This document shows positions 1,755 through 29,552 of a DNA stretch of 40,154 nt, piece after piece. The stretch comes from Lachnospiraceae bacterium. Lineage in GTDB: Bacteria > Bacillota > Clostridia > Lachnospirales > Lachnospiraceae. The first letter of the stretch is position 1, and each line of letters starts with the position of its first letter. The notes under the pieces were generated by a model that made no database searches, was not told the origin of the DNA, and saw only the letters and a list, made by a program, of their open reading frames with translations. A program made the translations under genes and the position numbers. The stretch is taken from NCBI GenBank assembly GCA_022796475.1, contig JAAWIS010000027.1:1-40154 (forward strand), given 5' to 3'.

Positions 1755-1761
1755 TTTGTTC

Positions 1762-3314: not shown

Positions 3315-4058
3315 ATGGAGTATCCCCCGGTTATGATTCGGGTTAAAAACCTTTACAAAATATATAAAGTTGGCGAAAGTAAGGTCCGCGCTTTAAACGG
3401 CGTGGATTTTACCCTGTACAAGGGTGAATTCTGTGCTATTGTAGGTACATCCGGTTCCGGAAAATCTACCTTGCTGAATATGCTGGCAGGATTGGAAAAA
3501 CCTACAAAGGGTGAAATCGAAATTGCGGGAAAGCGGATCGAAAAACTTTCTGAAAAAGAGCTGGTAACATTCCGAAGAGAGAAAGTAGGGTTTATTTTTC
3601 AATCCTATAATTTGCTGAATACTATGAATGCCATTGAAAATGTAGCCCTTCCTCTGTCTTTTCGGGGAATGAAGCGGAAGGATCGGCTGGCGCGTGCAAA
3701 GAAGTATATGGATTTGGTAGGTGTAGGCAAACAGGCAAATCATATGCCAAACCAGATGTCCGGCGGTCAGCAGCAAAGAGTGGGGATTGCCCGGGCTTTG
3801 GCGGTAAATCCTCAAATTATATTTGCGGACGAGCCTACGGGAAATTTGGATTCTAAAACTACAATGGAAGTGCTGAAGCTGATGCAGAAGATAGTAAGAG
3901 ATCAGAAGCAGACTTTGGTTATGGTTACACATGATAATAATCTGGCTTCTTATGCAGACCGAAGGATTCGGATCATTGACGGAAAGATTGTCAGTATCGA
4001 AGAGGGAGCCATAGAAGCCGGGGAAGAAAATGGAAATCAGGGAGGAATGGCAACATGA
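3315..4058 (+). CDS. ABC transporter ATP-binding protein, MacB/LolD type
   Basis: This is the ATPase of a type VII (mechanotransmission) ABC system. Walker A is GTSGSGKST (about residues 45-53), the signature MSGGQQQRVGIARAL (about 148-162) and Walker B IIFADEPTGNLDS (about 169-181), with the usual H-loop VTHD. The LNGVDF and VGFIFQSYNLL motifs are typical of the MacB/LolD/FtsE branch. The start is set at 3315 behind AGAGGTGA; a 31-codon upstream extension is untypical. The stop overlaps the next ATG by 4 nt (ATGA), so it is tightly coupled to the two genes downstream. Confidence 0.93.
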   Translation: MEYPPVMIRVKNLYKIYKVGESKVRALNGVDFTLYKGEFCAIVGTSGSGKSTLLNMLAGLEKPTKGEIEIAGKRIEKLSEKELVTFRREKVGFIFQSYNLLNTMNAIENVALPLSFRGMKRKDRLARAKKYMDLVGVGKQANHMPNQMSGGQQQRVGIARALAVNPQIIFADEPTGNLDSKTTMEVLKLMQKIVRDQKQTLVMVTHDNNLASYADRRIRIIDGKIVSIEEGAIEAGEENGNQGGMAT

Positions 4059-13832: not shown

Positions 13833-13980
13833 TGTGAAAGCTTGGCGCTCCGTCGCCAAGCTGTGGGAAAACGGGGCCGCGAAGCGGCATCTTCCATGCC
13901 CGTTTTCTGCACATCCTCCCGGAGGGTTCACAGGAACCCCTTTCATTTATGGTGATACCCTAGCGGGGCATGGGGGTTAC
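13833..13980 (-). repeat. Structured repeat family 1, unit C (inverted)
   Basis: One of two tandem units in the opposite orientation to units A and B. It starts (on +) with GTGAAAGCTTGGCG and ends with the CATGGGGGTTACTG edge. The gene-free stretch 13639-14244 consists of this unit, unit D and ~200 nt of AT-rich flank in which no other feature was seen. Confidence 0.92.
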
Positions 13981-14131
13981 TGTGAAAGCTTGGCGCCTCG
14001 TCGCCAAGCTGTGGGAAAACGGGGCCGCAACGCGGCAACTTCCACTCCCGTTTTCTGCACATCCTCCCGGAGGGTTCACAGGAACCCCCTTTCATTTATA
14101 GTGGTGCCCTAAGCGGGGCATGGGGGGTTAC
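13981..14131 (-). repeat. Structured repeat family 1, unit D (inverted)
   Basis: Second unit of the inverted tandem pair, ~90% identical to unit C. The open frame that runs through both units (13834-14112) follows from the repeat lacking stops in that frame; it has no ribosome site or family resemblance. Confidence 0.92.
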
Positions 14132-15070: not shown

Positions 15071-15093
15071 TCAGAAAATAAAAATTGTAAAAG

Positions 15094-15122
15094 CACAGAG
15101 AAAGCCGCCTTCGCATAGACTA
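15094..15122 (+). promoter_or_regulatory. Sigma-K-type promoter of sigK
   Basis: CACA (15094-15097, fits -35 mACm), a 16-bp spacer and CATAGACTA (15114-15122, exact -10 CATAnnnTA) lie 31 bp upstream of the sigK start. This is the pattern of SigK-dependent promoters and suggests positive autoregulation. Partial use by SigE, whose -10 also begins CATA, is possible. Confidence 0.65.
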
Positions 15123-15153: not shown

Positions 15154-15747
15154 TTGAAGACTTTTCCAAAACCATTATCCGCCAGCGAAGAGAAGGAATA
15201 TCTGGAACGCTGCAAAGAGGGCGACCAGGAGGCAAAGGGTATTCTGATTCTCAGGAATATGCGTTTAGTGGCTCACGTGGTAAAAAAATACCAGGGAACA
15301 GATTATGACATGGAAGATTTAATCAGTGTAGGTACAATCGGTTTGATTAAAGCAATCAATACATTTAAAGTAGATAAGGGTTCCAGACTGGCAACTTATG
15401 CTGCCAAGTGCGTGGAAAATGAGATTCTGATGCTTTTGCGGGCCGGGAAAAAATACAGCAGAGAAGTTTCTTTATTTGAACCAATCGGGGTGGATAAGGA
15501 CGGGGAAACCGTCAGCCTTGTTGATGTGATTGAAATGGAGAATCGGGAAACCATAGAAGATCTTATATTGGAACAGGATGTAAGGGATTTGTATCAATCA
15601 TATGAAAAATGTTTAAAAGGAACAGAAAAGACCGTGGTAGGAATGCGGTATGGCCTTTACGGAAAAAAAGAGCATACTCAAAGAGAGATTGCAGAAAAGC
15701 TGGGAATTTCACGGTCTTACGCTGCTGTTATTTTAGGGCATATCTGA
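15154..15747 (+). CDS. sigK: RNA polymerase sigma-K, 5' part, interrupted by a skin-like element
   Basis: This encodes residues 1-189 of the late mother-cell sporulation sigma factor, plus eight codons read from the element (AAVILGHI, then stop). FPKPLS (4-9), LRNMRLVAHVVKKY (33-46), MEDLISVGTIGLIKAINTF (53-71) and LATYAAKCVENEILMLLR (79-96) are region 2. VSLFEPIGVDKDG (105-117) is a SigK rather than SigE signature. Region 4.2 begins at TQREIAEKLGISRSY (175-189) and is cut in its recognition helix. The remaining 20 codons are at 21021-21084. The start is TTG behind AGGTGG. The protein begins right at the conserved FPKPLS, so there is no pro-sequence. Unrearranged, it should not bind the -35 element. 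Confidence 0.93.
   Translation: MKTFPKPLSASEEKEYLERCKEGDQEAKGILILRNMRLVAHVVKKYQGTDYDMEDLISVGTIGLIKAINTFKVDKGSRLATYAAKCVENEILMLLRAGKKYSREVSLFEPIGVDKDGETVSLVDVIEMENRETIEDLILEQDVRDLYQSYEKCLKGTEKTVVGMRYGLYGKKEHTQREIAEKLGISRSYAAVILGHI
15698..15739 (+). other. attL of the skin-like element (TA core at 15718-15719)
   Basis: The left flank is sigK coding sequence (ATTTCACGGTCT). The right arm, CG, C-GCTGTT (15722-15729) and TAGGGC (15734-15739), mirrors the arm at attR. Sigma-K homology stops exactly after the Tyr codon containing TA. Confidence 0.85.
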
Positions 15748-15787
15748 TTGTGATTTCCTTCAGCGATATGTTTGATAATGGATAGGA

Positions 15788-16468
15788 TTACATGCTGTCA
15801 ATAGAAAGAATGCCAGATAATTTCGAAAGTTCTTCTAAATAGACATCTTTCTTGAATTTTCTGGAAATGCGGACGGTTGACAGGATTGTAAAAGGCTGCC
15901 CGCCTGCTTTCGGGCGTTCAATATCATACATATCAATTTGGCATCCGTCTGTTTTTAACTTATGCAAAAGAGAGGATGCAGTTCGGCTGTCCTCGGCTTC
16001 TATGTATAAAGTTACATACAGAGAATTATGATAAAAACGTTCTTCAATCAGCGGAAGAATATGAAGCCCAACCATTAGGATCAAAGTAACCAATATGGCT
16101 CCATCTATAAATCCGATTCCGGCAGCCAGACCAATGCAGGCACAGATCCAAACTCCGGCAGCAGATGTCAGTCCTTTAATCTGATGACGGGATACGATGA
16201 TGGATCCAGCTCCTAAAAAGCCAACTCCACTGATCACTTGAGCAGCCATCCGGGAAATGTCAGTACCGCCTGGAAAATAAATATCCATATATTGAGCTGT
16301 CATCATCACCATAGCAGCACCTAAACAGACGGAAGCATCTGTCCGGGCGCCTCCGCCCCTTCGTTTGACTCCCCGATCGATTCCGATTAAAGCCCCTAAA
16401 AGAAAAGCAACTAACATCCGAATAACAATATTTTGAATGTTCCATTGAGTTAATGATGTAAAAAACAT
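15788..16468 (-). CDS. MgtC/SapB family membrane protein (skin cargo)
   Basis: This 226-residue protein has 4-5 membrane helices in the first ~140 residues and a soluble ACT-like C-terminal domain. Family marks are LLGALIGIDRGVKRRGGGARTD (about 18-39, read as GxERxxxxxxAGLRTH-type), QVISGVGFLGAGSII (about 77-91) and GLTSAAGVWICACIGLAAG (about 99-117). MgtC proteins modulate Mg2+/acid stress and ATP synthase in some bacteria; a role in spores is unproven. The start ATG has AAGGTGGAG upstream on the minus strand. It is the only minus-strand gene in the element. Confidence 0.88.
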   Translation of the reverse strand: MFFTSLTQWNIQNIVIRMLVAFLLGALIGIDRGVKRRGGGARTDASVCLGAAMVMMTAQYMDIYFPGGTDISRMAAQVISGVGFLGAGSIIVSRHQIKGLTSAAGVWICACIGLAAGIGFIDGAILVTLILMVGLHILPLIEERFYHNSLYVTLYIEAEDSRTASSLLHKLKTDGCQIDMYDIERPKAGGQPFTILSTVRISRKFKKDVYLEELSKLSGILSIDSM

Positions 16469-16569
16469 AAAATCTCCACCTTATATTTTGCTTTCTGCAG
16501 GATGCGTTCCATCTTGTCTTAAGAAGGAATGCAAACATAAAAGAAACGTGCCTGTTTCAGCAGCAATGT

Positions 16570-16591
16570 TACCAAAAGTATAACATACCTT
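16570..16591 (+). promoter_or_regulatory. Candidate sigma-E-like promoter of the recombinase operon
   Basis: CATACCTT (16584-16591) matches the SigE -10 CATACAnT at seven of eight positions. The -35 is weaker, with CAATGTT-type sequence near 16563-16569. It would drive 16656-21025 in the mother cell; tentative. Confidence 0.35.
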
Positions 16592-16655
16592 TTTGCATAG
16601 GACAATCCAAAAGGTGCGTAAGCTATAGAAAAATAAGTCCCAAGGAGTTCTGTTT

Positions 16656-16910
16656 ATGGACGAAAAGCAGTCACAAAAAGGACATGAAAACAGGTGGCAT
16701 GAATCATCAAATATAGATGATTTATTTGATATTCAAAAGCTTCACATTGATACTAATCTGCCAAGAGAAGAACGGATCCGGCAATTTTTAGATCAAATCA
16801 AGAATCCTTATCAGTTTCGGTATGGCGATATGGTAATCCGGGTACGTTTTGCGGACAATGGCATTTCACTAAGGGATCGAATCCAGCAGTATTTCAGGCT
16901 GACAGAATAA
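16656..16910 (+). CDS. DUF6870-like small protein; candidate directionality factor
   Basis: This 84-residue soluble protein starts at an ATG behind AAGGAG (16642-16647). The region SNIDDLFDIQKLHIDTNLP (about residues 18-36) and EERIRQFLDQIKNPYQFRYGDMVIRVRF (about 38-65) resemble the DUF6870 family found beside clostridial mobile elements. It lies 43 nt before the first recombinase and is probably in the same operon. Small genes next to large serine recombinases often encode excision (directionality) factors; that role is inferred from position only. Confidence 0.65.
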   Translation: MDEKQSQKGHENRWHESSNIDDLFDIQKLHIDTNLPREERIRQFLDQIKNPYQFRYGDMVIRVRFADNGISLRDRIQQYFRLTE

Positions 16911-16953
16911 ACTGTTTCAAAATAATCAGAGATTAGGAAAGAGGTTTAATAGG

Positions 16954-18315
16954 TTGGAATCTGAAAAAAAAACAATTTATCACGGAGCAATTTATATCCG
17001 CCTTTCTAAAGAAGACAGGGAAAAGGGAGAAAGTAATAGTATTGCAAACCAGAGAACTCTGCTGAAAGCGTTTTTGAAATCCAAGCCAGAGATTATACTG
17101 TGCGGCGAATGGGTAGATGACGGTTACAGCGGAGTTAATTTTCAGCGTCCCGGAGTACAGGGGCTGCTTGGAAAGGTAAAGGCAGGGGAGATTGACTGTA
17201 TTGTAGTAAAGGATTTGTCTCGGTTTGGAAGAAATTATATTGAAACAGGGCGTTATATGGAGCAAATGTTCCCTTTTTTAGGGGTAAGATTTATTGCAGT
17301 TAATGATGGTTATGACAGTACAGAAAAAGGGGATCAGTGGAATAAGATGCTGATTCCCTTTAAAAATTTGATTAACGACGCTTACAGCCGGGATATTTCT
17401 ATAAAAGTAAGAAGCCAGCTTCAGGCCAGATATCAGCAAGGAGATTATGTAGGTTCCTTTCCGGCATATGGATATATCCGCTCAGAAGCGGATAAGCACA
17501 AACTTCTAATTGACTATCCTGCCGCTGCTGTTGTGCAGGCTATTTTCAGGAAGAGGATCGGAGGCTGGGGATGCCGCCGGATAGCCGGCTGGCTGAATGA
17601 AGAAGGGATTTTATCGCCTTTGGAATATAAAAAGCAGCAGGGGTTGGCTTATTTTACTCCATTTCAGCAAAATTCACAGGCAAGATGGTCTGCACAGTCT
17701 GTAGCCCGTATTCTAAAAAGTGAATTATATACCGGAACCATGGTGCAGGGAAAGGAAAGCTCGCCCAACTATAAAATAAAAAAGAAAAAGAAAATACCTT
17801 CTTCCCAGTGGATCCGGGTAGCGGATACTCATGAAGCAATTATTACAAAAGAAGATTTTGAATTGACTTCAAGAATTCTTGCAATGGATACCAGAACTTC
17901 TCCGGAACATTCGGAAATATGCCTGTTTTCCGGTTTTTTGAAATGTGCAGATTGTGGTAAAAATATGATACGCCGGCCGGTAAAAACGAAAGAAAGCTGC
18001 AGGCATTACTATATCTGCAGAATAAGAAAAGAAGATTGTTCCAAATGTCAAAATCGATGCCGTATAAGTGAAACTAAAATTTATGACTGCGTGGAAACGG
18101 TATTCGAAAAACTGCTTATGGCTGGTGAGATGAATGGATGGGAAATTTTAAAAAAAAGAAAAGATAACGATTCTAATTTTTTATCGCTAAATAGGACGCT
18201 TCTTGCTGTGCTGGTAGAAACGATCCTGATTAAGGAAGAAAACGAAAGAAAAGAAGTCAGGATAAATTTTAGCTGTCAGGATTTTTTTTGTGAAGACTCA
18301 GCGTCCCGTTGCTGA
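16954..18315 (+). CDS. Large serine recombinase 1 (skin element)
   Basis: This 453-residue site-specific recombinase has three parts. The resolvase catalytic domain (about 8-150) has YIRLS with nucleophile Ser18, DDGYSGVNFQRPG and DLSRFGRNY. The recombinase DNA-binding domain is at about 165-290. A zinc ribbon follows (CADCGK near 330; CSKCQNRC near 362). The start is TTG behind AGGAAAGAGG, 9 nt upstream. The final codons and stop (EDSASRC) come from repeat unit E, so the C-terminus was altered by that insertion. All key catalytic residues are present. Confidence 0.93.
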   Translation: MESEKKTIYHGAIYIRLSKEDREKGESNSIANQRTLLKAFLKSKPEIILCGEWVDDGYSGVNFQRPGVQGLLGKVKAGEIDCIVVKDLSRFGRNYIETGRYMEQMFPFLGVRFIAVNDGYDSTEKGDQWNKMLIPFKNLINDAYSRDISIKVRSQLQARYQQGDYVGSFPAYGYIRSEADKHKLLIDYPAAAVVQAIFRKRIGGWGCRRIAGWLNEEGILSPLEYKKQQGLAYFTPFQQNSQARWSAQSVARILKSELYTGTMVQGKESSPNYKIKKKKKIPSSQWIRVADTHEAIITKEDFELTSRILAMDTRTSPEHSEICLFSGFLKCADCGKNMIRRPVKTKESCRHYYICRIRKEDCSKCQNRCRISETKIYDCVETVFEKLLMAGEMNGWEILKKRKDNDSNFLSLNRTLLAVLVETILIKEENERKEVRINFSCQDFFCEDSASRC

Positions 18316-18437
18316 GCAGTGGGAAAACGGGGTTGCAAAGCGACATCTTCCATACCCGTTTTCTGCACATCCCCCGGAGGGTTCACAGGAACCGCGTTCA
18401 TTCATGGCGGTGCCCTAAGCGGAACATAGGGGTTGCT
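18288..18437 (-). repeat. Structured repeat family 1, unit E (inverted, inside the skin element)
   Basis: This is a more diverged single unit between recombinases 1 and 2. Its outer stem is CTCAGC/GCTGAG where units A, C and D have CTTGGCG/CGCCAAG, a compensatory change. It supplies the stop codon of recombinase 1 and would be the intercistronic spacer of the operon. Confidence 0.85.
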
Positions 18438-18467
18438 ATGAAAAGCCAGAAGAAAGGATATGAGAAG

Positions 18468-20018
18468 ATGGCAAGGCCAAATCGGAATAACCGGGAATCT
18501 AAGTTAGAATCAGAGATAGGATTTAAGCAGACATACCGTACCGCCATTTATGCCAGGCTTTCCATTGAGGACAATGGAAAAAATACGGATTCTATTAAGA
18601 ATCAGATTTTGTATCTGAAAAAATATATAAAAAAGACGCCGGATTTAGAGTTTACTGCCTGCTATCAGGACAACGGGATCTCAGGAACCCATTTTGAACG
18701 TGCCGGATTTCAGGCTATGATGGAAACAGCAAAAAGAAGGAAGATTGACTGTATTGTAGTAAAAGATTTATCAAGGTTCGGAAGAAATTATATGGAAACT
18801 GGTGCGTATCTGGAAACCATTTTCCCGTGTCTTGGGATCCGTTTTATATCAGTTAACGACGACTATGACAGCATGACGGCAACGGGAAATGAACTCTTGG
18901 CGCTTTCTGTGAAAAATATCGCACATCACTTCTATGCAAAGGATATTTCTGAAAAGATCCGGACACATTTGGCGATCAAGAAAAAGCAAGGATGCTATCT
19001 GGGCAGATATGGGCCTTATGGTTATAAAAAATCACTGGATAATCCGCATCGATTAGAGATCGATGAAGAAACAGCCCCGGTGGTCAGAGAAATCTATTTC
19101 ATGAGCTTAAAAGGTGACGGTGCGGCAAAGATTGCCAGGACTTTAAATGACAAAGGAGTAGTATCACCTGCATCCAGACGATGCCAAATGGGGCTTTTAA
19201 AAGGAACAAACGGGGAAAAAAACGCTCTCTGGAGCGGTTCCACAATTTTGGAAATACTGCAAAACCCGATATACTGCGGATACCTCCTGGAGCGCAAAAC
19301 AGAAGCGGTAGCTTTTACAGAAGATGGAAGACAGAAGCGGCGCAAGCTTTCAAAAAAAGAATGGAATTTTATTAAGGGGATTCATGATGCAATTATTGAC
19401 CAGGAAACATTTTTACAGATTCAGGATAAAATGGGATTAAAAGGGAAGCAGACAACAGAAAAAAACAAAAAAAAGACCGAAAACAAATTCAAGGGACTGG
19501 TTTTCTGTGGCATCTGCGGTTCTGCAATGAACCGGGATCAAGGATATTGCAGTAAAAAAACAAAAGAGATTACATACCGCTATATCTGCGGCAGAAAATA
19601 TAAAAATTCAACAGGATGCCCCGTACCTAATATACCGGAAGTTAAGCTGCGAAACGCGATAACAGAATTTTTAAATCAATTGATTCAGGCTTTTGAACAA
19701 CAGGAAGAATGGATGAAGCCTTATTTTCAAAATTTAGATTTAAGGGATTCTTTGGATTTAGAAGATTCCTTACGTCTACAGGACGCTCAAAAGCTGCCAG
19801 ATGCTTTAAAGGTAAGAGATTCCTCAAAGCTGCAAGATTCCCGGAATTTACCTTGGAATTTCTGCAAAAGTTTAATCGATAGGATTTGGGTCTTTCCAAA
19901 ACAAATTGAAATCCGGCTTTCGTTCTGCCTGCAAAACGAAAAACAAAATGTTTTTGAAAATATTTTAGAAACTGTCTGTGCGGAAAAGGAAGGGGAAGAT
20001 TTATGGAAAAACAATTAA
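18468..20018 (+). CDS. Large serine recombinase 2 (skin element)
   Basis: This 516-residue recombinase starts at ATG 18468 behind AAAGGA; in-frame ATGs at 18309 and 18438 lie in or at the edge of the repeat and lack a site. Catalytic domain: YARLS with Ser32, DNGISGTHFERAG, DLSRFGRNYMETG. The recombinase domain follows, then a zinc ribbon (FCGICGSAMN near residue 345; CP near 382). After it, six tandem hexapeptides of the type [LV]xD[SA]xx occupy about residues 425-460, an unusual insertion. The stop overlaps recombinase 3 by 16 nt, so the two are translationally coupled. Confidence 0.93.
   Translation: MARPNRNNRESKLESEIGFKQTYRTAIYARLSIEDNGKNTDSIKNQILYLKKYIKKTPDLEFTACYQDNGISGTHFERAGFQAMMETAKRRKIDCIVVKDLSRFGRNYMETGAYLETIFPCLGIRFISVNDDYDSMTATGNELLALSVKNIAHHFYAKDISEKIRTHLAIKKKQGCYLGRYGPYGYKKSLDNPHRLEIDEETAPVVREIYFMSLKGDGAAKIARTLNDKGVVSPASRRCQMGLLKGTNGEKNALWSGSTILEILQNPIYCGYLLERKTEAVAFTEDGRQKRRKLSKKEWNFIKGIHDAIIDQETFLQIQDKMGLKGKQTTEKNKKKTENKFKGLVFCGICGSAMNRDQGYCSKKTKEITYRYICGRKYKNSTGCPVPNIPEVKLRNAITEFLNQLIQAFEQQEEWMKPYFQNLDLRDSLDLEDSLRLQDAQKLPDALKVRDSSKLQDSRNLPWNFCKSLIDRIWVFPKQIEIRLSFCLQNEKQNVFENILETVCAEKEGEDLWKNN
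19740..19847 (+). repeat. Six 18-bp tandem repeats in recombinase 2 (hexapeptide LxDSxx)
   Basis: Six consecutive 18-bp units encode LRDSLD, LEDSLR, LQDAQK, LPDALK, VRDSSK and LQDSRN. The DNA units have diverged, but the Asp-Ser/Ala core is kept. They lie after the zinc ribbon, where coiled-coil or synapsis-control segments occur in other large serine recombinases. Confidence 0.8.
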
Positions 20019-21025
20019 TAACGGCAATCTATTTAAGGATTTCCGATGAAGACAGGACGCTTAAGGCAGTCAGTGAAAGCAGCAGCATTACAGGACAGAG
20101 AATGCTGCTGCGCCGCTTTATTAGCCGGCATCCGGAACTGTCAAACAGCAAAATTCTTGAGTTTATTGATGATGGATACAGCGGCACAAATTTTCAACGT
20201 CCCGGAATTCAATCACTGTTAAAAATGGCAGAAAAAAAAGAGATTAACTGCATTGTGGTAAAGGATTTCTCACGGTTTGGGCGGAATTACCTGGAAACAG
20301 GAAATTATTTGGAGCAAGTGTTTCCAATGCTTGGAATTCGGTTTTTATCAGTAAATGACTGTTTTGACAGCTTTGACCAGATAGGAGCGGCAGGCTCCAT
20401 TGATGTAGGATTTAAAAATATAATCCATGATTTTTACAGCCGGGATCTTTCTGTTAAAATCCGAACCGGACGGAAAACAAAGGCAGAGCAGGGCAAGTTT
20501 ACAACTGGTTTTGCACCTTACGGATATTTAAAAGACTGTCAAGATCCAGGAAGATTAATCGTGGATCCGGAATGCGCTGCCTGCGTGCGCCGGATTTTTC
20601 AGCTTTATCTGAATGGAAAAGGAACAGGCACAATTGCCAAAATTCTGAATCAGGATGGAATCTTAAGTCCCAAGATGATACGCTGTGTTCGGTCGCTGCC
20701 TCAAAGAAAAAATGAGAATCATGAGAAGCAATGGGGCTGCAATGATGTTCAAAATGGCATCAAACGTACCTGTTTTTGGACAGCAGGCACCATTTCCCGA
20801 ATTTTGTCTGACCAGCGATATACCGGATGTGCTGTTTTTGGAAAAACAAAACCAGCAGCAGTAGGAAGCAAAAAAGAACAGGCAGTTTCACAGGAACAGT
20901 GGATTCTGGTTCCTAATGCACATCCCGCCATTATATCACAAAAGGAATTTGACTGTACAAAAGCAAGAATGAAAAAGCGCCTTAAGGCTGGAAAGAAAGC
21001 CCTATTGGAACAGCCGAATATGTAA
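20003..21025 (+). CDS. Large serine recombinase 3, short (no zinc ribbon)
   Basis: This 340-residue recombinase has the catalytic domain (YLRIS with Ser14, DDGYSGTNFQRPG, DFSRFGRNYLETG) and the recombinase domain (about 150-330). It stops before any zinc ribbon. Its last codons run through attR: the stop TAA is made by sigK sequence beyond the TA core. After excision the frame would read a few different codons (ending TLLLF) in the circle. RBS AAGGAAGGGGAAG lies within the end of recombinase 2. The short form may be native, or a loss at the element edge; all catalytic residues are kept. Confidence 0.88.
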   Translation: MEKQLITAIYLRISDEDRTLKAVSESSSITGQRMLLRRFISRHPELSNSKILEFIDDGYSGTNFQRPGIQSLLKMAEKKEINCIVVKDFSRFGRNYLETGNYLEQVFPMLGIRFLSVNDCFDSFDQIGAAGSIDVGFKNIIHDFYSRDLSVKIRTGRKTKAEQGKFTTGFAPYGYLKDCQDPGRLIVDPECAACVRRIFQLYLNGKGTGTIAKILNQDGILSPKMIRCVRSLPQRKNENHEKQWGCNDVQNGIKRTCFWTAGTISRILSDQRYTGCAVFGKTKPAAVGSKKEQAVSQEQWILVPNAHPAIISQKEFDCTKARMKKRLKAGKKALLEQPNM

Positions 21026-21040
21026 GCCGAATTGAGAAAA
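20999..21040 (+). other. attR of the skin-like element (TA core at 21019-21020)
   Basis: The left arm is GCCCTA (20999-21004), AACAGC-G (21009-21016), AA, then TA. The right flank TGTAAGCCGAATTGAG resumes sigK coding (V-S-R-I-E). Its left arm is the inverted partner of the attL right arm. Confidence 0.85.
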
Positions 21041-21084
21041 AAGCATTGGAAAAATTAAGAAGGGAAATGGAAGCTTCTATATAA
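21021..21084 (+). CDS. sigK: sigK 3' part (last 20 codons), displaced by the element
   Basis: Read after the TA core, this gives VSRIEKKALEKLRREMEASI and stop. It directly continues ISRSY of the 5' part and matches the SYVSRIEKRAL pattern that ends region 4.2 in SigK. It has no start or ribosome site of its own and makes sense only after excision. The rejoined gene would have 209 codons. Confidence 0.9.
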
Positions 21085-21100
21085 ATAGTTAGAGAAAAGG

Positions 21101-21193
21101 CGTGCTGCAAAACGCCGGTATCATTCCACAATGGCAGCGACAGACTGCAGCTTGCTGTATCTTGTGGAATTGCCGGAAACTGCAGCACGTTTT
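21101..21193 (+). terminator. Long-stem terminator behind sigK 3' part
   Basis: CGTGCTGCA/TGCAGCACG, CCGG/CCGG and ATTCCACA/TGTGGAAT form a three-segment stem with a 40-nt loop, followed by TTTTC. It probably ends the sigK (or recombinase) transcript. The rest of the gene-free stretch 21194-21492 holds only the mtlA promoter and AT-rich leader. Confidence 0.65.
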
Positions 21194-21363
21194 CTTTGGG
21201 AAACATAGTGCTGCCTCTTAGTGTGCTGTCTGCCTTATATCGGCAACCTTCCTCTTCTGAATTTTCCAAATAATTTCTATGCAGTATTCGCTGTTGCGCC
21301 AGTTGCCTTGTGAAAGTTGGATTCTGTCATCAATTCCTGGCGCCAAATCCGAATTTCTATCGG

Positions 21364-21393
21364 TTGAAAAAAATCCGCTTATTAGCGTATAAT
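21364..21393 (+). promoter_or_regulatory. Sigma-A promoter of the mannitol PTS gene
   Basis: TTGAAA (21364-21369), an 18-bp spacer and a perfect TATAAT (21388-21393) lie ~100 nt before mtlA. An AGAAAGCGGTTGGCC sequence just downstream is only a weak cre-like match. Confidence 0.75.
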
Positions 21394-21492
21394 AAAAACT
21401 ATCAAGAGAAAGCGGTTGGCCAATCCGTTTCTAAATCAGAGAAAGAAATCGGAACGTAAAATCGAAATGAACATTAAGGAAGGAATGTGAAA

Positions 21493-22920
21493 ATGAAACA
21501 AAACGTACAGCTATTTGGCCGCACATTAAGTGCGATGGTAATGCCTAATATCGGCGCATTTATCACATGGGGATTTATTGCTGCACTGTTTATTGCAACG
21601 GGATGGCTTCCCAATGAAAAATTTGCTTCTCTGGTAGGCCCGATGTCTTCTCAGCTTCTTCCGCTGTTAATTGCATTTACTGGCGGATATAATGTAAGCG
21701 GGCACAGGGGAGGGGTTTTAGCTGCCATAACAACGATGGGACTGATTGTAGGATCTGATATTCCCATGTTTCTGGGTGCTATGATTATGGGACCCCTATG
21801 CGGTTTCCTCATGAAAAAATTTGATTCATTTATAGAAGGAAAAGTAAAGGCTGGATTTGAAATGCTGGTGAATAATTTTTCAATCGGCATTATTGGCCTG
21901 GTTTTAGTTTTGCTGGCAGTTCAGGTAATCTCACCAGTGGTTCAGGTACTTAATCATGTGCTGGCTGCTGGAGTAAATTTCTTTGTAACGAATCATCTTC
22001 TTCCATTTACAAGTGTGCTGATTGAGCCGGCAAAAATTTTATTTTTAAATAATGCGATTAATCACGGCATTTTAACGCCTATGGGTTCCCAGCAGGTAAA
22101 TGAGGCAGGGAAATCCATACTGTTTTTGCTGGAAGCAAATCCTGGTCCCGGACTTGGGATTTTGCTGGCCTACTGTCTGGCCGGAAAGGGTTCTGCTAAA
22201 GGGAGTGCTCCGGGGGCCGTGATTATTCACTTTTTCGGCGGCATCCATGAAATCTATTTTCCCTATATTTTGATGAATCCGCTGCTTGTTGTATCAGCAG
22301 TCTGCGGCGGAGCAGCAGGGATTTTAGTAGAAACGATTTTCGGGGCAGGCTTAACCGGTGCAGCAGCCCCCGGAAGCATCTTGGCTATTTTAGCTATGAC
22401 AGCCCAGGATTCCTATTTTGGCGTTCTCTTAGGCGTGGCGGCTGCTGCGGCTGTATCATTTGCTCTTTCCATGGTAATTTTAAAGGTTGCAGGAAAAGAG
22501 GAGGATTTAGAGGCAGCAGCAGCCCAGACGAAAGCGATGAAGGCTTCTTCAAAAGGCCTTAAGACAGAAGACGCGAAAAGCACTTCTTCCGTTTCCGGAC
22601 AGAAAACTGCAGGCAGCAAAAGCGGCATGGAAAAGGTGGGATTTATCGTATTTGCCTGTGATGCAGGTATGGGTTCCAGTGCTATGGGAGCTACTGTTTT
22701 AAAGAAAAAACTAAAAGAAGCCGGATTAGAGGATATAAAAGTACAGCACGCTCCGGTATCCTCAATTCCGAAGGAGGCTCAAGTTGTGGTGACCCATGAA
22801 GAACTTGGCCCCCGTGCAGCATCAAGCAATCCAACGGCAGAATTAATATTAATCCATAATTTTCTTGCTGCTCCGGAGTATGATGTGCTGGTAGAGAATT
22901 TAAAGAAAAGAAACCGCTGA
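21493..22920 (+). CDS. mtlA: PTS mannitol-type transporter EIICB
   Basis: This membrane transporter takes up and phosphorylates mannitol, or a related hexitol, to the 1-phosphate. The EIIC part (about 1-345) has helices with NIGAFITWGFIAALFIATGW, AINHGILTPMGSQQ (about 196-209) and the FFGGIHEIYFPY substrate motif (about 252-263). After an Ala/Lys/Ser linker, the EIIB domain has FACDAGMGSSAMG with phospho-Cys389. The EIIA domain, fused in E. coli MtlA, is separate here (25425). ATG 21493 is chosen behind AAGGAAGG; a GTG at 21487 is too close. Confidence 0.93.
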   Translation: MKQNVQLFGRTLSAMVMPNIGAFITWGFIAALFIATGWLPNEKFASLVGPMSSQLLPLLIAFTGGYNVSGHRGGVLAAITTMGLIVGSDIPMFLGAMIMGPLCGFLMKKFDSFIEGKVKAGFEMLVNNFSIGIIGLVLVLLAVQVISPVVQVLNHVLAAGVNFFVTNHLLPFTSVLIEPAKILFLNNAINHGILTPMGSQQVNEAGKSILFLLEANPGPGLGILLAYCLAGKGSAKGSAPGAVIIHFFGGIHEIYFPYILMNPLLVVSAVCGGAAGILVETIFGAGLTGAAAPGSILAILAMTAQDSYFGVLLGVAAAAAVSFALSMVILKVAGKEEDLEAAAAQTKAMKASSKGLKTEDAKSTSSVSGQKTAGSKSGMEKVGFIVFACDAGMGSSAMGATVLKKKLKEAGLEDIKVQHAPVSSIPKEAQVVVTHEELGPRAASSNPTAELILIHNFLAAPEYDVLVENLKKRNR

Positions 22921-23061
22921 CCTTTGAATCTGACAGGGGTGCTGCAAAGGTGCTGAAACTACACAACATATAATCCAGCCAGTGTGATTTTTGTTATATA
23001 ATTGCAGGAATATGGAATTTTGCAGCGCCTTCTATAAAAATTTATGCAGTATAAACAGCCA

Positions 23062-23094
23062 CCGTCCCGTGGATTTTATAATGGGACGGGTTTT
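23062..23094 (+). terminator. Intrinsic terminator between mtlA and mtlR
   Basis: CCGTCCC (23062-23068) pairs with GGGACGG (23083-23089), followed by GTTTT. It lies 35 nt before the mtlR start, so it could attenuate mtlR. Confidence 0.6.
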
Positions 23095-23128
23095 GGCATT
23101 TTGGGATATAGCAGGGGTGGAGTACAGA

Positions 23129-25297
23129 ATGAAAGAAATTAAAATAGATTTTTCTTCCAGAATGCAGCAGATTCTGAAGATTCTTTTGAATCAGGAAGGA
23201 GCGGTTCCAGTTAAGCTTTTGGCGGATCAGATGGGGATCAGTAAGAGAACCGTTCAAAGGGAACTGGAATCCGTGGCCCGTCCGCTTAAAAAATATGGTT
23301 TGGAATTTTGTTCAAAAGCTGGAAGCGGAGTGTGGCTGGAAGGCGAAACTGCTGATAAGGCTGAGCTGCTGTCACGTTTAGAAGCGGAAGACGGGCTGGA
23401 TATAACGGATAAAGCAGAGCGGAGAAAACGTTTGGTTTTGGAAATCTTAAGGGATAAAACAGTAAAAAAACTTTACTATTACAGTCAGCTTTTTGGCGTC
23501 AGCGAGGCCACAATCAGTACAGATTTAGAATCAGCAGAAGGATGGCTTTCTGATTTCGGATTAAAAGTAGTTCGCAAGCCAGGGCTTGGAATCTGTATAG
23601 AAGGAAGAGAAGGGAATTTTCGGCAGGCGCTCCGGGCTTTTATTGGTGAGAATATGAATTCTGCTATTATCCGTAATCTATACACTGGTACAAGGGAAGA
23701 TGGTGGAAAATCTGAAGAACTGATACTGTCAGAAATGGGACAAGGCAGCCAGATTCTAAAACTGGCACAGAATCAAAGCAATAAAAACATTTACCGGGTG
23801 CTGGATGAAGGGATTATGAGGCGGGTCGTTTCCAGCCTTCACCGGGTCACTGAGAAGCGGCTCAGAAATTTGACAGAACAGTCTTACACAGGACTGGTAA
23901 TTCATGTAACAATAGCAGTTAACCGGATTTTAAATCAGGAATTGATGGAGGAAAATCCAAAGCTTTTAGAACATATGGAGCGGGATGAGGACTTTCAACT
24001 GGCAGGAGAGATTATCCGTCAGTTGGAACAGGAATTTCAAGTATCGATCCCCCAAGAGGAAACGGCTTATATTTGTCTGCATCTAAAAGGCGCTAAGGTG
24101 CAGCAGTATGAGGGGGACAGCGCTTCCAGAGAAATGATTAAGGAATACCGGGAACTTTGGGTTCTGGTAAATGAGATGATTGATCGATACGATCCGGAAA
24201 TCGCCTATGCTTTAAAACAGGATGAGGAATTTGTTGTTTGGGGGTTAGTGGCCCATTTGCAGCCTACGTTAGTTCGGCTGTCAAATCATATGACGATTCA
24301 AAATCCTCTGCTGGAACATATTAAAACGGAATATCATGAAATTTATGAGCGGTGTACAGAAGTAGCGAAGGTTATCCAGGAGCGGTACGGCTATGAAGTT
24401 CCGGAAGCAGAAATTGGCTTTTTAGCGATTCATTTCGGTGCAGCTCTTGTACGGCTGGAAAACCGCCACGAAAATAAGAGAAAGGTATTGATCGGTGTAG
24501 TCTGTGCCAGCGGAATCGGCATTTCCAGGCTAATGGTATCAAAGCTGGATCGCTATTTTTCAGACAGGGCAGAGATTCAGGCATTTGGAACCTTTGATTT
24601 AAATCCTTATGTGCTGGAACGGCTTGATTTTCTGATTTCTACCCTGCCGCTTCAGGAAGAGATTGAAAGTATTTTGGTGAGTCCCCTTTTGACAGATGAC
24701 GACATTGAGCGGATCCGAAGGCGGGTAGTCTATTACGAGAGAATGCCAAAAAAGCAGTCTGTAGAAGACGGGTTTACCAGACAACTGGAGCAGGTAAATT
24801 TTATTGCCACGCAGATAAAACGGATGATTCAGGAAATGGGATATCTTTTGGTCAGTCCGGAAATTTCGTTTCAGGAATTGCTGCTGGCAGTCAGCGAAAT
24901 GCTGTCACCATACCATGACAGACGCCATCAGATTCAGGAAGATCTGAAAAAAAGGGAACGCCTTGGCAGCCAGGTGTTTGCACAGTTTGGATTTGCCCTT
25001 CTCCATGCGAAAACAAAAGGGGTAGGAAAACCAAGTTTTTCAGTATGCCAGACTAAGGGATTTCATCCCTTTCAAGATGCTTATTTTCAGGGAATTTCCG
25101 TGGTAATTGTTATGCTGCTGCCAGAAGATGAACATATTGAAGAAAACCGGCAGATTCTTGGCTTTTTAAGCGAAACATTGGTAGAAGAATACGAATTTTT
25201 AGAAACTGTGTCAGGAGGCAGCAAAGAAGAGATTCAAAGCATCCTGTCAAAATATTTGAAAAAGTTTTTCAACCAATATTTAGATCGGGTATCGTAA
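23129..25297 (+). CDS. mtlR: Mannitol operon activator, BglG/MtlR type with PRDs
   Basis: This 722-residue PTS-controlled activator contains, in order: N-terminal HTH (VKLLADQMGISKRTVQREL, about 31-49); a second HTH (about 110-150); PRD1 (about 190-290) and PRD2 (about 300-420), with conserved His as in YICLHLKGA and GFLAIHFGAAL; an EIIB-like domain starting KVLIGVVCASGIGIS; and a C-terminal EIIA-like domain with FALLHAKTKG. The start is set at 23129 behind AGGGGTGGAG; a longer frame to 22991 crosses the terminator and is unlikely. It should respond to phosphorylation by HPr and mannitol EII. Confidence 0.9.
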   Translation: MKEIKIDFSSRMQQILKILLNQEGAVPVKLLADQMGISKRTVQRELESVARPLKKYGLEFCSKAGSGVWLEGETADKAELLSRLEAEDGLDITDKAERRKRLVLEILRDKTVKKLYYYSQLFGVSEATISTDLESAEGWLSDFGLKVVRKPGLGICIEGREGNFRQALRAFIGENMNSAIIRNLYTGTREDGGKSEELILSEMGQGSQILKLAQNQSNKNIYRVLDEGIMRRVVSSLHRVTEKRLRNLTEQSYTGLVIHVTIAVNRILNQELMEENPKLLEHMERDEDFQLAGEIIRQLEQEFQVSIPQEETAYICLHLKGAKVQQYEGDSASREMIKEYRELWVLVNEMIDRYDPEIAYALKQDEEFVVWGLVAHLQPTLVRLSNHMTIQNPLLEHIKTEYHEIYERCTEVAKVIQERYGYEVPEAEIGFLAIHFGAALVRLENRHENKRKVLIGVVCASGIGISRLMVSKLDRYFSDRAEIQAFGTFDLNPYVLERLDFLISTLPLQEEIESILVSPLLTDDDIERIRRRVVYYERMPKKQSVEDGFTRQLEQVNFIATQIKRMIQEMGYLLVSPEISFQELLLAVSEMLSPYHDRRHQIQEDLKKRERLGSQVFAQFGFALLHAKTKGVGKPSFSVCQTKGFHPFQDAYFQGISVVIVMLLPEDEHIEENRQILGFLSETLVEEYEFLETVSGGSKEEIQSILSKYLKKFFNQYLDRVS

Positions 25298-25424
25298 CTG
25301 CAGGTTCACAGAATTTGTCACGATCGGCTGACGTCAAATGCCGGTTTCTTTTCATTGAAACCCAGAAGCAGTAATTTTATAATAAAAAGCATAAAGTCAA
25401 CGGCAGAATTTAAGGAGGTTATGT

Positions 25425-25946
25425 ATGTTCGGTTTCGGGAAAAAGAAAAAAGAAGAAAGCCAATCAGAAAAAAAAGGGACTTGTCCAGGAGCAGTTTTGC
25501 CAGAAGCAGAAAAGCCACAGCTTTTGGAAATGAAGAATATTTTGCTGGACTGCAGGGCAAAATCGAAAGAGCAGGTAATCCGGGAAATGGGACAGCTTCT
25601 TTGTGATAGTGGTTATGTAAATGAGTCATATGGAGAAGCTATGCTGAAGCGCGAGCTGTCCTTTCCGACTAATATCGGAAATGGTATTGCTCTTCCCCAC
25701 GGGGTAGAAGAAGCCAAGAAGGACATTAAACACTCTGGAATTGCAGTTATGGTATTTCCGGAAGGAACAAACTGGGGCAGTGAGGATGTGAAACTGGTAA
25801 TCGGAATTGCAGGCGTGGGAGAAGAGCATCTGGAAATTTTAAGTATTATTGCAGAGCGGATGTCCGATCCGGATGCAGTTTTAAAGGTGGTATCCGGCAG
25901 CAAAGAAGAAATTTACCGCACCTTTACGGGGAAAGGAGAAGTGTAA
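25425..25946 (+). CDS. mtlF: PTS mannitol EIIA component
   Basis: This 173-residue cytoplasmic phosphocarrier passes phosphate from HPr to the EIIB of the transporter. The N-terminal ~28 residues are a charged extension (GFGKKKKEESQ). The EIIA domain has NGIALPHGVEEAKK with active-site His92 and the C-terminal HLEILSIIAERMSD. ATG 25425 is 6 nt behind AAGGAGG. The stop TAA abuts the next start (TAAATG), a close coupling to the kinase. Confidence 0.92.
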   Translation: MFGFGKKKKEESQSEKKGTCPGAVLPEAEKPQLLEMKNILLDCRAKSKEQVIREMGQLLCDSGYVNESYGEAMLKRELSFPTNIGNGIALPHGVEEAKKDIKHSGIAVMVFPEGTNWGSEDVKLVIGIAGVGEEHLEILSIIAERMSDPDAVLKVVSGSKEEIYRTFTGKGEV

Positions 25947-26879
25947 ATGATTATTACAGTAACAATGAATCCAGCTATTGATAAAACCATAGATATTGAA
26001 CGGCTGGAGCGGGGCGGACTGAATCGGATTAAAAATGTGGAGATGGATGCAGGTGGAAAAGGGATCAATGTTTCAAAAACGATCCATGCCCTTGGGGGAA
26101 GCAGCCTGGCAACAGGATTTTTAGGTGGTAAAGCCGGAGAGATGATTGAAAGCGTTTTATGTGAGTATGGAATCAAAACGGATTTTATCCATGTAGACGG
26201 AGAAACCAGAACCAATACGAAAGTAGTAGAAGCGTTAGGGGAGGTTACCGAGTTAAATGAGCCGGGGCCTGTGGTAACAAAAGAGCAGGTGGAAGCGCTG
26301 CTTGAAAAATTAGAGGGCTATGGAGGGGCAGACACTCTGGTAGTATTAGCAGGAAGCATTCCAAAAGGTGTGGATCCGACAATTTATAAAGAAATTACGG
26401 AACGTGTCCACAAAAAAGGCGGGAAGGTTTTAATGGATGCAGATGGGGAGCTGTTTATCCATGGACTGGAGGCATATCCGGATATGATTAAGCCAAATCG
26501 GATGGAGCTGGAGGCTTATTATCATCTGGACTACCGGGCATCGGAAAGTGAACTGGTATCGATGGGAAAAAGGCTGCTGGCAAAGGGGAGCACGCTGGCA
26601 GCAATTTCACTTGGACAGATGGGCGCCTTATTTTTAAGGGAAGATAAGGCAGTGCGCTGTCCGGGGCTTACTGTAAAAGCCCACTCTACTGTAGGGGCTG
26701 GAGATGCTATGGTAGCAGCGCTGGCATATAGCTGGGATCAGAAACTGCCTTTTGAAGAAACCATTCGCCTTGCCATGGCAGCTTCTGCAGGAGCGGTTAC
26801 CACCATAGGAACCAAGCCGCCTGCAAGAGAAGTGGTAGACGAATTAGCAAAGCAGGTAACAGTCGAACCAGTTTTATAA
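25947..26879 (+). CDS. 1-phosphofructokinase family kinase (FruK/LacC)
   Basis: This PfkB-family sugar-phosphate kinase (310 residues) probably makes fructose 1,6-bisphosphate from fructose 1-phosphate. It begins TVTMNPAIDKT as in FruK, has the DAGGKGINVS substrate motif (about 31-40) and VVLAGSIPKGVDP. The C-terminal STVGAGDAMVAALAY contains the catalytic Asp. Its place behind mtlF and before a SorE-like dehydrogenase suggests that a 1-phosphate ketose is produced from the hexitol phosphate. Tagatose-6-phosphate kinase is an alternative. Confidence 0.85.
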   Translation: MIITVTMNPAIDKTIDIERLERGGLNRIKNVEMDAGGKGINVSKTIHALGGSSLATGFLGGKAGEMIESVLCEYGIKTDFIHVDGETRTNTKVVEALGEVTELNEPGPVVTKEQVEALLEKLEGYGGADTLVVLAGSIPKGVDPTIYKEITERVHKKGGKVLMDADGELFIHGLEAYPDMIKPNRMELEAYYHLDYRASESELVSMGKRLLAKGSTLAAISLGQMGALFLREDKAVRCPGLTVKAHSTVGAGDAMVAALAYSWDQKLPFEETIRLAMAASAGAVTTIGTKPPAREVVDELAKQVTVEPVL

Positions 26880-27026
26880 TCTAAAACGAAGCAGCAACAC
26901 AGATGTTGTCCGATAAGGGCTTATATGAGGGAGTATTTTATATAGAAACCAACAGTTTCGTCAGAATAAGCATTAAAATAAACATTTGAACAGGGAGAAA
27001 GAGAATTAAAAAGGAGAATGGAAAAA

Positions 27027-28286
27027 ATGAAAACAAGAGCAGTGAGAATGTATGGGGAAATGGATCTTCGGCTGGAAGAGTTTGAACTTCCGGAAATAAA
27101 AGATGATGAAATTTTAGTAAAAGTAATAAGTGACAGTATCTGCATGTCTACCTATAAACTGGTAAAGCAAGGGAAAAAGCATAAACGTGCGCCGCAGAAT
27201 ATTGATACGAATCCAATTATTATTGGCCATGAATTTGCAGGTGACATTGTTAAAGTAGGGAAGAAGTGGCAGGATCAGTTTAAGCCCGGACAAAAATTTG
27301 CACAGCAGCCGGCACTGAATTATAAGGGAAGCCTGGCGTCTCCGGGTTATTCCTATGAATTTTTTGGCGGGGCCTGTACGTACTGCATTATCCCTCAGGA
27401 AGTAATGGAGTTAGGATGCCTTCTTCCCTATGATGGAGAAAGCTATTTTGAAGCGTCTTTAGGTGAACCTATGAGCTGCATCATTGGAGGCTACCATGCA
27501 AATTACCACACAAATAAACAGAATTATCATCATGCAATGGGAACAAAAGAAGGCGGAAACATTTTAATTATGGGCGGATGCGGGCCTATGGGGTTAGGTG
27601 CAGTCAGCTATGGCATCCAGTTTGAAAACCGGCCTAAGAAAATTGTAGTGACTGATGTGGACGATGCAAAAATAGAGCGGGCCAAAGAAGTGATTCCAGA
27701 AGAAGGGGCAAAGGCAAAAGGTGTGGAACTGTTATATGTAAATACGGCAAAGATGGAAGACCCATTAAAAGAACTAATGGAAATCAGCGAAGGCCATGGA
27801 TATGATGATGTATTCGTATACGTTCCCATTAAGCCTGTTGCAGAATTAGGAGATAAGCTTCTGGCTTTTGACGGCTGCATGAATTTCTTTGCAGGTCCTA
27901 CAGACAACCAGTTTAAGGCAGAGATTAATTTGTACAATGTACATTATACAAGTTCTCATATACTTGGAACTACTGGCGGAAATACGGATGATTTAATTGA
28001 AGCGAACCGATTAGCGGCAAAAGGTGAAATTGAACCGGCAGTTATGGTAACTCATGTAGGAGGCATTGACAGCATTATCGATGCAACCAAGAGCCTGCCT
28101 TCTATTCCCGGCGGAAAGAAGCTGACATATACCCAGTTTGAGATGCCTCTGACAGCAATAGAAGATTTCGAAAGGTTAGGAACAACAGATCCGTTGTTTA
28201 AGAAATTATCAGATTCCTGCAAGAAGCACAGAGGTTTATGGAATGCGGAAGCAGAAAAAATTTTGTTTGACCATTTTGGAGTTTAA
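27027..28286 (+). CDS. Zinc-type dehydrogenase related to L-sorbose-1-phosphate reductase (SorE)
   Basis: This 419-residue medium-chain dehydrogenase aligns by pattern with SorE: MYGEMDLRLEEFELPEIKDDEIL (start), SDSICMSTYK with the zinc Cys, PIIIGHEFAGDIVKVGKKWQ, and MGGCGPMGLGAV as the nucleotide loop. The C-terminal part has FFAGPTDNQF, HYTSSHILGTTGGNTDD and PGGKKL. SorE acts on the carbonyl next to the phosphorylated carbon. Start 27027 is used because AAGGAG (27011) is 1 nt from the upstream ATG but 10 nt from this one. It follows the kinase by ~150 nt and likely belongs to the hexitol locus, taking the place of MtlD. Confidence 0.8.
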   Translation: MKTRAVRMYGEMDLRLEEFELPEIKDDEILVKVISDSICMSTYKLVKQGKKHKRAPQNIDTNPIIIGHEFAGDIVKVGKKWQDQFKPGQKFAQQPALNYKGSLASPGYSYEFFGGACTYCIIPQEVMELGCLLPYDGESYFEASLGEPMSCIIGGYHANYHTNKQNYHHAMGTKEGGNILIMGGCGPMGLGAVSYGIQFENRPKKIVVTDVDDAKIERAKEVIPEEGAKAKGVELLYVNTAKMEDPLKELMEISEGHGYDDVFVYVPIKPVAELGDKLLAFDGCMNFFAGPTDNQFKAEINLYNVHYTSSHILGTTGGNTDDLIEANRLAAKGEIEPAVMVTHVGGIDSIIDATKSLPSIPGGKKLTYTQFEMPLTAIEDFERLGTTDPLFKKLSDSCKKHRGLWNAEAEKILFDHFGV

Positions 28287-28351
28287 ACACCAGTACAGTT
28301 ATGGTGGCAAAGCAAATAAACATATCAGCAGAATAATTTAACAAAATTATA

Positions 28352-28380
28352 TTGCATTTTTTAATGTCTTTTTGTATGAT
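28352..28380 (+). promoter_or_regulatory. Sigma-A promoter of galE
   Basis: TTGCAT (28352-28357), a 17-bp spacer and TATGAT (28375-28380). The ~145-nt leader holds an inverted CTTAAAAT/ATTTTAAG (28460-28501) close to the start codon, of unknown role. Confidence 0.6.
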
Positions 28381-28532
28381 TAATGAAACAAGTAAATCCG
28401 TTTCCGGTAAGCAGAATCATGAAAGCGTGTTTGCTTGAAATCATTGTAACCGGGCGCTCTTAAAATTTCACCTATTTTTGTTTTTGCAGCAGATTTTAAG
28501 GGTACTCTAATCGTATAAAGGAGGAAGTGCAG

Positions 28533-29552
28533 ATGTCTATTTTAGTTGCCGGAGGTGCCGGTTATATCGGCAGCCATACCTGTGTGGAGCTGTTGCAGGC
28601 AGGTTATGATGTGGTGGTTGTGGATAATTTATATAATTCCAGCAAAGAGGCCATAAAGAGGGTAGAACAGATTTCAGGAAAGCCAGTGAAATTTTATCAA
28701 GTAGATTTGCTGGACAAAGATGGGTTAAATCAAGTATTTAATCAGGAAAAAGTGGAGTCAGTTATTAACTTTGCCGGGCTGAAGGCAGTAGGAGAGTCGG
28801 TTCACAAACCGCTGGAATACTACCATAATAACATTACCGGAACCTTAATTCTCTGTGATGTAATGCGCAGTCATGGAATTAAAAATATTATCTTTAGTTC
28901 TTCCGCTACGGTTTACGGTGATCCTGCATTTGTTCCGATTACTGAAGAGTGTCCAAAAGGTTTGATTACGAATCCCTATGGCCAGACCAAGGGGATGCTG
29001 GAACAGATATTAACCGATTTAAATGTGGCGGATCCAGAGTGGAATGTTGTGCTCCTTCGCTACTTTAACCCCATAGGAGCTCATGAAAGCGGCTTAATTG
29101 GCGAGGATCCAAAGGGAATCCCCAATAATTTAGTTCCCTATATTGCACAGGTAGCAGTAGGGAAGCTGGAAAAGCTTGGAGTATTCGGGGATGATTACCC
29201 CACTCATGACGGCACAGGTGTTCGTGACTATATCCATGTAGTTGATTTGGCAAAAGGCCATGTAAAGGCTTTAAAGAAACTGGCTCCCGGTTCCGGCGTC
29301 AGCATTTATAATCTGGGCACAGGCAATGGCTACAGTGTTTTAGATGTGCTTCATGCGTATGAGAAAGCATGTAAGAAAACGCTGCCTTATGAGATTAAGC
29401 CCAGAAGAGCCGGAGATATTGCTACTTGCTATTGTGACGCTTCCAAGGCAAGGGAGGAACTTGGATGGGCTGCTGAAAAAGGCATCGAGGAAATGTGTGC
29501 TGATTCCTGGAAATGGCAGTCTATGAATCCAGATGGATATTCAAACGTATAA
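28533..29552 (+). CDS. galE: UDP-glucose 4-epimerase
   Basis: This SDR-family epimerase interconverts UDP-glucose and UDP-galactose with bound NAD+. It has VAGGAGYIGSHT (about 5-16), DNLYNSS and FAGLKAVGESV. The catalytic Ser-Tyr-Lys are SSSATVYGDP (about 121-130) and NPYGQTK (about 146-152). LLRYFNPIGAHESG and RDYIHVVDLA follow. Length 339 residues, normal. ATG 28533 lies 8 nt behind AAAGGAGG; a GTG at 28527 is too close. It has its own promoter. Confidence 0.96.
   Translation: MSILVAGGAGYIGSHTCVELLQAGYDVVVVDNLYNSSKEAIKRVEQISGKPVKFYQVDLLDKDGLNQVFNQEKVESVINFAGLKAVGESVHKPLEYYHNNITGTLILCDVMRSHGIKNIIFSSSATVYGDPAFVPITEECPKGLITNPYGQTKGMLEQILTDLNVADPEWNVVLLRYFNPIGAHESGLIGEDPKGIPNNLVPYIAQVAVGKLEKLGVFGDDYPTHDGTGVRDYIHVVDLAKGHVKALKKLAPGSGVSIYNLGTGNGYSVLDVLHAYEKACKKTLPYEIKPRRAGDIATCYCDASKAREELGWAAEKGIEEMCADSWKWQSMNPDGYSNV

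Follow-up and report, generated by a model that had tools for sequence, protein, structure and literature searches.

In the window analysed here (40,154 nucleotides of a Lachnospiraceae genome), sigK, which encodes a late regulator of sporulation, is cut in region 4.2 by a 5.3-kb element that carries three large serine recombinases (LSRs) and a DUF6870 protein; that this interruption is real is confirmed. The element is a member of a clade specialised on this one codon of sigK, and it is probably a compact, partly domesticated developmental switch of the skin type. With such a switch, gut Lachnospiraceae would join the sporulating bacteria in which genes are rearranged by programme, and they would do so with another recombination machine.

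The split gene and the element within it

A TTG-start frame of 197 amino acids (15154-15747, plus strand) follows SigK through ...GISRSY, after which come AAVILGHI and a stop. The absent C-terminus of SigK, VSRIEKKALEKLRREMEASI with its stop, is found on the same strand at 21022-21084, and the split point lies after ...ISRSY. The two junctions have only a TA in common (15718-15719 and 21019-21020); joining at these dinucleotides removes 5,301 bp and leaves an uninterrupted SigK frame of 209 amino acids. Against TIGR02846, the split form scores 270.0 bits and the joined form 294.5 (+24.5), and the profile end reached moves from position 213 to 226 of 227. Both forms stay below the cut-off of this model (298.65), the joined one by 4 bits, and both exceed the cut-off of 252 of the SigK subfamily model NF004471. 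The latter is also narrowly passed by the SigE of the same genome (256.8), so that NF004471 alone is not discriminating.

As in skin, then, sigK is interrupted, exact removal gives a full frame, and the element has site-specific recombinases of its own. A preliminary description, made from the sequence alone, had proposed a skin-like element of this length, small and largely made of recombination genes, whose excision at TA would restore the frame. All of this holds: the 3' end lies 5,301 bp downstream on the same strand, the joined frame is that of SigK, and three of the five frames in the element are LSRs. The features are collected in Table 1. For the putative promoter, the same AGCAC ... 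GCATA-like layout is seen by eye 5' of sigK in all five genomes compared, and AC and CATA-type elements are described for P2 of C. difficile sigK (PMC3789822).

Table 1. Features of the split sigK and of the intervening element, in window coordinates.
Feature	Position	Strand	Basis
Putative sigK promoter, AAAGCAC-N16-GCATAGACT, sigma-K-like	15090..15121	+	layout resemblance, by eye
sigK 5' part, 188 codons, TTG start, upstream of core TA	15154..15717	+	frame and profile match
attL: core TA (15718-15719) and left attP arm TACGCTGCTGTTATTTTAGGG	15718..15738	+	
MgtC/SapB-family membrane protein, cargo	15788..16468	-	PF02308, 5.6e-33
Conserved box ATAGGACAA, SpoIIID-like, 50 nt 5' of DUF6870	16597..16605	+	
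DUF6870 protein, 84 aa, candidate accessory or directionality factor	16656..16910	+	PF21757, 2.6e-25
LSR1, Zn ribbon present, coiled coil absent	16954..18315	+	
Dispersed host repeat, copy between LSR1 and LSR2	18295..18440	+	51 matching places in genome, itself included
LSR2, short acidic stretch instead of coiled coil	18468..20018	+	
LSR3, without Zn ribbon and coiled coil, terminates within attR	20003..21025	+	
attR: right attP arm CCCTATTGGAACAGCCGAATA and core TA (21019-21020)	21000..21020	+	
sigK 3' part: final base of the Tyr codon, VSRIEKKALEKLRREMEASI, stop	21021..21084	+	

The three LSRs stand in tandem and in one orientation, adjoining sigK. All of them have Resolvase and Recombinase domains, and a Zn ribbon is present in LSR1 and LSR2 only. 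The frame of LSR2 opens at 18309 and runs through the repeat, its probable start being the ATG at 18468. When the element ends are joined, the resulting attP is an imperfect inverted repeat about the TA; an inverted-repeat attP around the core is what is expected for a serine integrase. NCBIfam searches with the element frames returned mainly distant LSR models, XisF and Ccr, far under cut-off. PHROGs, searched with the five frames, place the LSRs in integrase, invertase or transposase families only, with no match for the MgtC/SapB-family and DUF6870 frames. No phage structural gene, of the kind that would mark a prophage, was found among the element frames scanned, and no relaxase or transfer gene, of the kind that would mark an ICE, was found in them with Pfam, NCBIfam and PHROGs. 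The G+C content is unremarkable (0.395-0.421 per covered kb, against 0.38-0.47 around). As for the dispersed repeat, it is about 145 nt long, several of its 51 matching places in the genome are tandem pairs, and further copies lie in the window at 13850-14126 and 1225-1509.

A second intact sigK, which the preliminary description had named as evidence that would refute the switch, did not appear in the profile search of the genome's own assembly (a draft of 170 contigs, 95.6% complete). The next TIGR02846 match, on contig C11 with 244.8 bits, is SigE, which scores 372.3 bits, above the SigE cut-off, and is preceded by a spoIIGA-like frame, itself below its model cut-off. SpoIVA is present above cut-off, and SpoIIID is partial only, at a contig end. 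The excised junction is absent from this assembly with up to two mismatches allowed. Ten other genomes of the window's genus were compared: in seven the SigK match is nearly full-length (in one of these with an internal TGA), one has a fragment that is intact across the junction, and two give no match at E 1e-50. A practical caution follows for annotation: a sigK recorded as broken or missing may belong to a gut bacterium that possibly still sporulates.

Elements at the same codon in other genomes

A survey of sigK in other genomes gave 80 named loci, the best 80 of a larger number. At the codon where the window's gene is split, 74 of these are uninterrupted; a comparison with uninterrupted relatives is what the preliminary description had proposed. 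Four loci are cut at exactly the same codon (L042, L060, L066 and L073), one a few bases later (L096), and one is uninformative (L093). Same-codon elements are also found in the Lachnospiraceae genomes G330, G251 and G323, which brings the total to eight genomes, the window's included. When the element arm pattern was sought in 397 genomes of the family, two matched, the window's own and G330.

In all seven elements with two known ends, removal between the TAs restores the SigK frame. The lengths removed are 5,301 bp in the window, 7,478 in G409 (L073), 8,279 in G330, 8,162 in G251 and 16,097 in G323; in G407 (L060) the length is 22,652 when counted to the first sigK 3' end. The ends of the same-site element of G406 (L042) lie on two contigs. 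The left attP arm reads TAC-N4-CTGT-N-A-N3-YAGGG and the right one CCYTA-N4-RACAG-NN-GARTA in 7/7 same-site elements, and in each of the seven with both ends known the two arms are inverted repeats. An assembly artefact, by which two unrelated sequences were joined, would be conceivable in a draft of so many contigs, yet the two att arms, the exact 2-bp core and the in-frame restoration, together with the same arrangement and both ends in six other genomes (on a 3.5-Mb contig in the case of G330), leave this explanation with a negligible chance.

A tree of 47 LSR1-type rows unites the LSR1 proteins of the seven same-site elements in a single clade (support 100/99); the 38 rows from other loci are the survey loci that yielded a usable frame, and the spoVD row and three survey rows have long branches. 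Within this clade, the window LSR1 clusters with those of G330, G251 and G323. The LSRs of G406 and G407 are 90-96% identical, and the SigK halves of the same two genomes are 77% identical. Since the recombinases are closer than the interrupted genes, members of this clade have passed from host to host and entered the same codon each time. The preliminary description had regarded the insertion as an independent integration: with respect to the skins of B. subtilis and C. difficile this stands, whereas the idea of an isolated event gives way to a codon-specialised clade in eight genomes.

Several of these loci are elaborate. In G330 (L111/L112, reverse-complement coordinates 15492-28600) two elements split sigK. 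One, of 4.2 kb, lies at a site that shares AATGA, which we take to be the core of the B. subtilis skin; the other is the 8.3-kb same-site triplet element. Removal of both gives a SigK of 210 amino acids. In G107 (L158) the gene is apparently also split twice, by a DUF6870/LSR element in mid-gene and by a single-LSR element directly after SRSYV, and the adjoining sigE frame is broken at an assembly gap. G407 (L113-L117) has one sigK 5' half and, on contig C9, three further copies of attR with a sigK 3' end, one of them degenerate; another 3' end lies on contig C71, and the same right arm precedes all copies. Either the 3' ends are alternatives arranged in an array, or elements have accreted here. 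The locus cut a few bases later (L096, in G410, 437-5995) holds another kind of sigK element, of 5.6 kb and inserted at YVSR, with one LSR and a cargo of two shikimate dehydrogenases, a shikimate kinase and a dehydroquinate dehydratase.

Shortened recombinases and related systems

The coiled-coil segment of LSRs steers their directionality and favours integration. This segment is missing from LSR1 and LSR2 of the window when they are aligned with their counterparts in G330, G406, G407 and G409; both retain the catalytic part, the Recombinase part, the Zn ribbon and the C-terminal strand. LSR3 of the window is without the coiled coil and without the Zn ribbon. G323 shows the same three LSR losses with its frames intact, and in G251 the segment is present in LSR1 and LSR2, whose neighbour LSR3 is short and retains a remnant of the segment. 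One site offers a natural series, from full-length to coiled-coil-less triplets, in which the conversion of a mobile recombinase into a host switch can be studied.

The three window LSRs are open frames in which the catalytic serine motif is retained. On the window branch, the rate at codon positions 1+2 relative to position 3 is 0.33 for LSR1, 0.37 for LSR2 and 0.26 for LSR3 in a test normalised for saturation, the un-normalised version being weak for LSR2 (p 0.2). Other branches give 0.16-0.30, so the window branch is slightly less constrained. The window LSRs have been under purifying selection, which may partly predate the losses or may have ended recently. As to what such proteins could do, phiC31 integrase without its coiled coil is inactive, and LI integrase without it keeps about 2% of its activity in both reactions (PMC10754689). 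An excision-capable, poorly integrating module is plausible, and a dead recombination module is possible.

The latter would mean that the shortened LSRs cannot excise the element and that the lineage is unable to finish sporulation. One could cite for this the Zn ribbon lost from LSR3 and the coiled coils lost from all three LSRs, the host repeat that sits between LSR1 and LSR2, and the missing excised junction; the Zn ribbon, usual as it is in LSRs, is nevertheless missing from 10 integrases (PMC4701971). A dead element is quite improbable in view of the three open frames with their catalytic motifs and the constraint on the window's own branch, the sigK pieces and att arms intact on both sides, the same triple loss with intact frames in G323, and the intact SpoIVA and SigE.

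The skin-like switch, the reading preferred here, has relatives of several kinds. With the skins of B. subtilis and C. difficile the window element shares its place within sigK, a serine recombinase and the in-frame restoration. In C. difficile, skinCd has an LSR and an RDF under sigma-E/SpoIIID, and to this small second factor under mother-cell control (PMC5025042) the candidate counterpart is DUF6870. Both skins differ in having a single recombinase, prophage-like content and other sites, and they are larger (48 kb; 19 genes) than the 5.3 kb seen here; the window element has an LSR triplet with DUF6870 and a cut in region 4.2, a difference of site that the preliminary description had rightly pointed out. 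Like the gin element in gerE of Bacillus cereus ATCC 10987, it is a non-phage element with three serine recombinases that splits a sporulation gene. The excision of gin is carried out by GirC together with the directionality factor GirX; the element has 31 genes, with girC at a distance from girAB, and its three recombinases are only about 22-26% identical (PMC5595907). The target gene and the host class are different, and the accessible part of that paper does not mention DUF6870.

The streptococcal LSR-triplet ICEs also have three LSRs in the same orientation at the element end, a direct repeat of 2-8 bp (2 bp, TA, in the window) and an intragenic position, but they are conjugative and lie in mutT, traG or hsdM (PMC4701971), whereas the window copy has shortened LSRs and no transfer gene was found in its frames. 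Prophages in sigK of Alicyclobacillus and C. tetani, and yin in yabG, are insertions into sporulation genes as well (PMC13141910, PMC5553647, PMC10747680) and are phage or prophage-like, unlike the window element. In the latter, recombination falls to an LSR triplet of the ICE type, partnered by DUF6870, and not to a prophage integrase. No report of such elements in Lachnospiraceae was found in the literature searched, which largely leaves out subscription papers. The kind is known from skin and gin; what is new, as far as this search goes, is that this site, an LSR triplet with DUF6870, a compact size and the loss of the coiled coils come together.

In IMG/VR, no close relative of LSR2 and no exact match to the attP pattern of the circle were found; viral-contig matches to the left-arm pattern (L100-L102) proved, judged by their flanks, to be unrelated DNA.

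DUF6870, its upstream box and the proposed switch

DUF6870, present in a single copy in the window's own genome, occurs in 85 of 397 genomes of the family; no paper naming it was found in the literature searched. It is a candidate helper of recombination, that is, an accessory or directionality factor. Its retention after the loss of the coiled coil makes a role apart from coiled-coil-mediated directionality possible, and it may be something other than a directionality factor.

The box ATAGGACAA 5' of DUF6870 is exact in six of the seven same-site elements and takes the variant form ATGGGACAA in G406, so that all seven have it. In a general sample it is found at 4/29 loci, the window among them, and in a second set of 60 stretches at 12/63 positions, where the background rate of that DNA predicts 0.14. 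Its GGACAA is similar to GGACAAG, which we take to be the SpoIIID consensus of B. subtilis. The C. difficile consensus, KRTAACARK, is unlike the box, and SpoIIID as its regulator is therefore a guess. There is no GGACAA within 1.7 kb around the genome's own spoIIID, and the box was looked for 5' of that gene and not seen.

The first set has three box-bearing elements outside sigK, and a test stated beforehand asked whether they interrupt sporulation genes. Two could be placed in such genes; the third is that of G107 (L142). In G008 (L151/L152), of the window's genus, a box-bearing DUF6870/LSR-triplet element splits spoVB (TIGR02900 profile 1-279 and 277-462), and in G013 (L153), of another genus, one splits spoVD (TIGR02214 profile 3-167 and 201-558). 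In the second set, G251 and G323 contribute two box-bearing loci, which are their sigK elements. The proposed link of the box to sporulation genes is drawn from nine box-bearing elements with an identified gene (seven sigK, spoVB and spoVD). A counter-example is the DUF6870 element at the other site within sigK of G107, which is without the box.

Could this be an ordinary integrative element, with sigK as its attB, that leaves at random or under stress, whose carriers rely on its occasional loss, and whose excision is uncoupled from development? LSR triplets are integration modules of ICEs (PMC4701971), and the G406 and G407 elements show that movement does occur. Moreover, DUF6870 is accompanied by an LSR1-type frame in 29/30 loci of the general sample, the window among them (at L144, DUF6870 itself was not aligned by tblastn), so that this pairing is no peculiarity of sporulation genes. 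It is nonetheless unlikely that nothing more is at work: the element frames have no transfer gene by the three profile collections, the window copy has lost its coiled coils and a Zn ribbon, which speaks against its still being mobile, and the box recurs in every same-site element, far above expectation in the second set, and in spoVB and spoVD.

In the skin-like switch, by contrast with such an element, excision would be tied to development, and its course and timing, as we infer them, would be as follows. In growing cells sigK would be off, because the end of the -35 recognition helix is missing. In the sporulating mother cell, one or more of the LSRs, probably aided by DUF6870, would bring about recombination of attL and attR at their TA core, by which the element would leave as a circle of 5,301 bp and sigK would become intact. 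The box 5' of DUF6870-LSR1-LSR2-LSR3 is a likely site at which a mother-cell regulator (SpoIIID and/or sigma-E/K) would switch the module on. The ancestor would have been a mobile LSR-triplet element, of which the window copy would be a compact descendant whose integration-favouring coiled coils are gone. Against the switch stand the threefold coiled-coil loss, the Zn ribbon lost from LSR3, the lack of an excised junction in the assembly and of an exact match to the circle's attP in IMG/VR, the partial SpoIIID with no GGACAA around its gene, the mismatch with the C. difficile consensus and the box-less element of G107.

A wider proposal, more tentative than the switch itself, is that Lachnospiraceae may have a family of DUF6870/LSR-triplet elements specialised on mother-cell sporulation genes (sigK, spoVB and spoVD), with a shared ATAGGACAA box through which they would be activated, and that in some lineages they, in the window's lineage too, could have become one-way, excision-only switches by loss of the coiled coil. 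As a separate observation, made by eye, box-bearing DUF6870 genes with a single LSR adjoin collagen-like frames of the spore-surface type at three loci (L177, L195 and L214).
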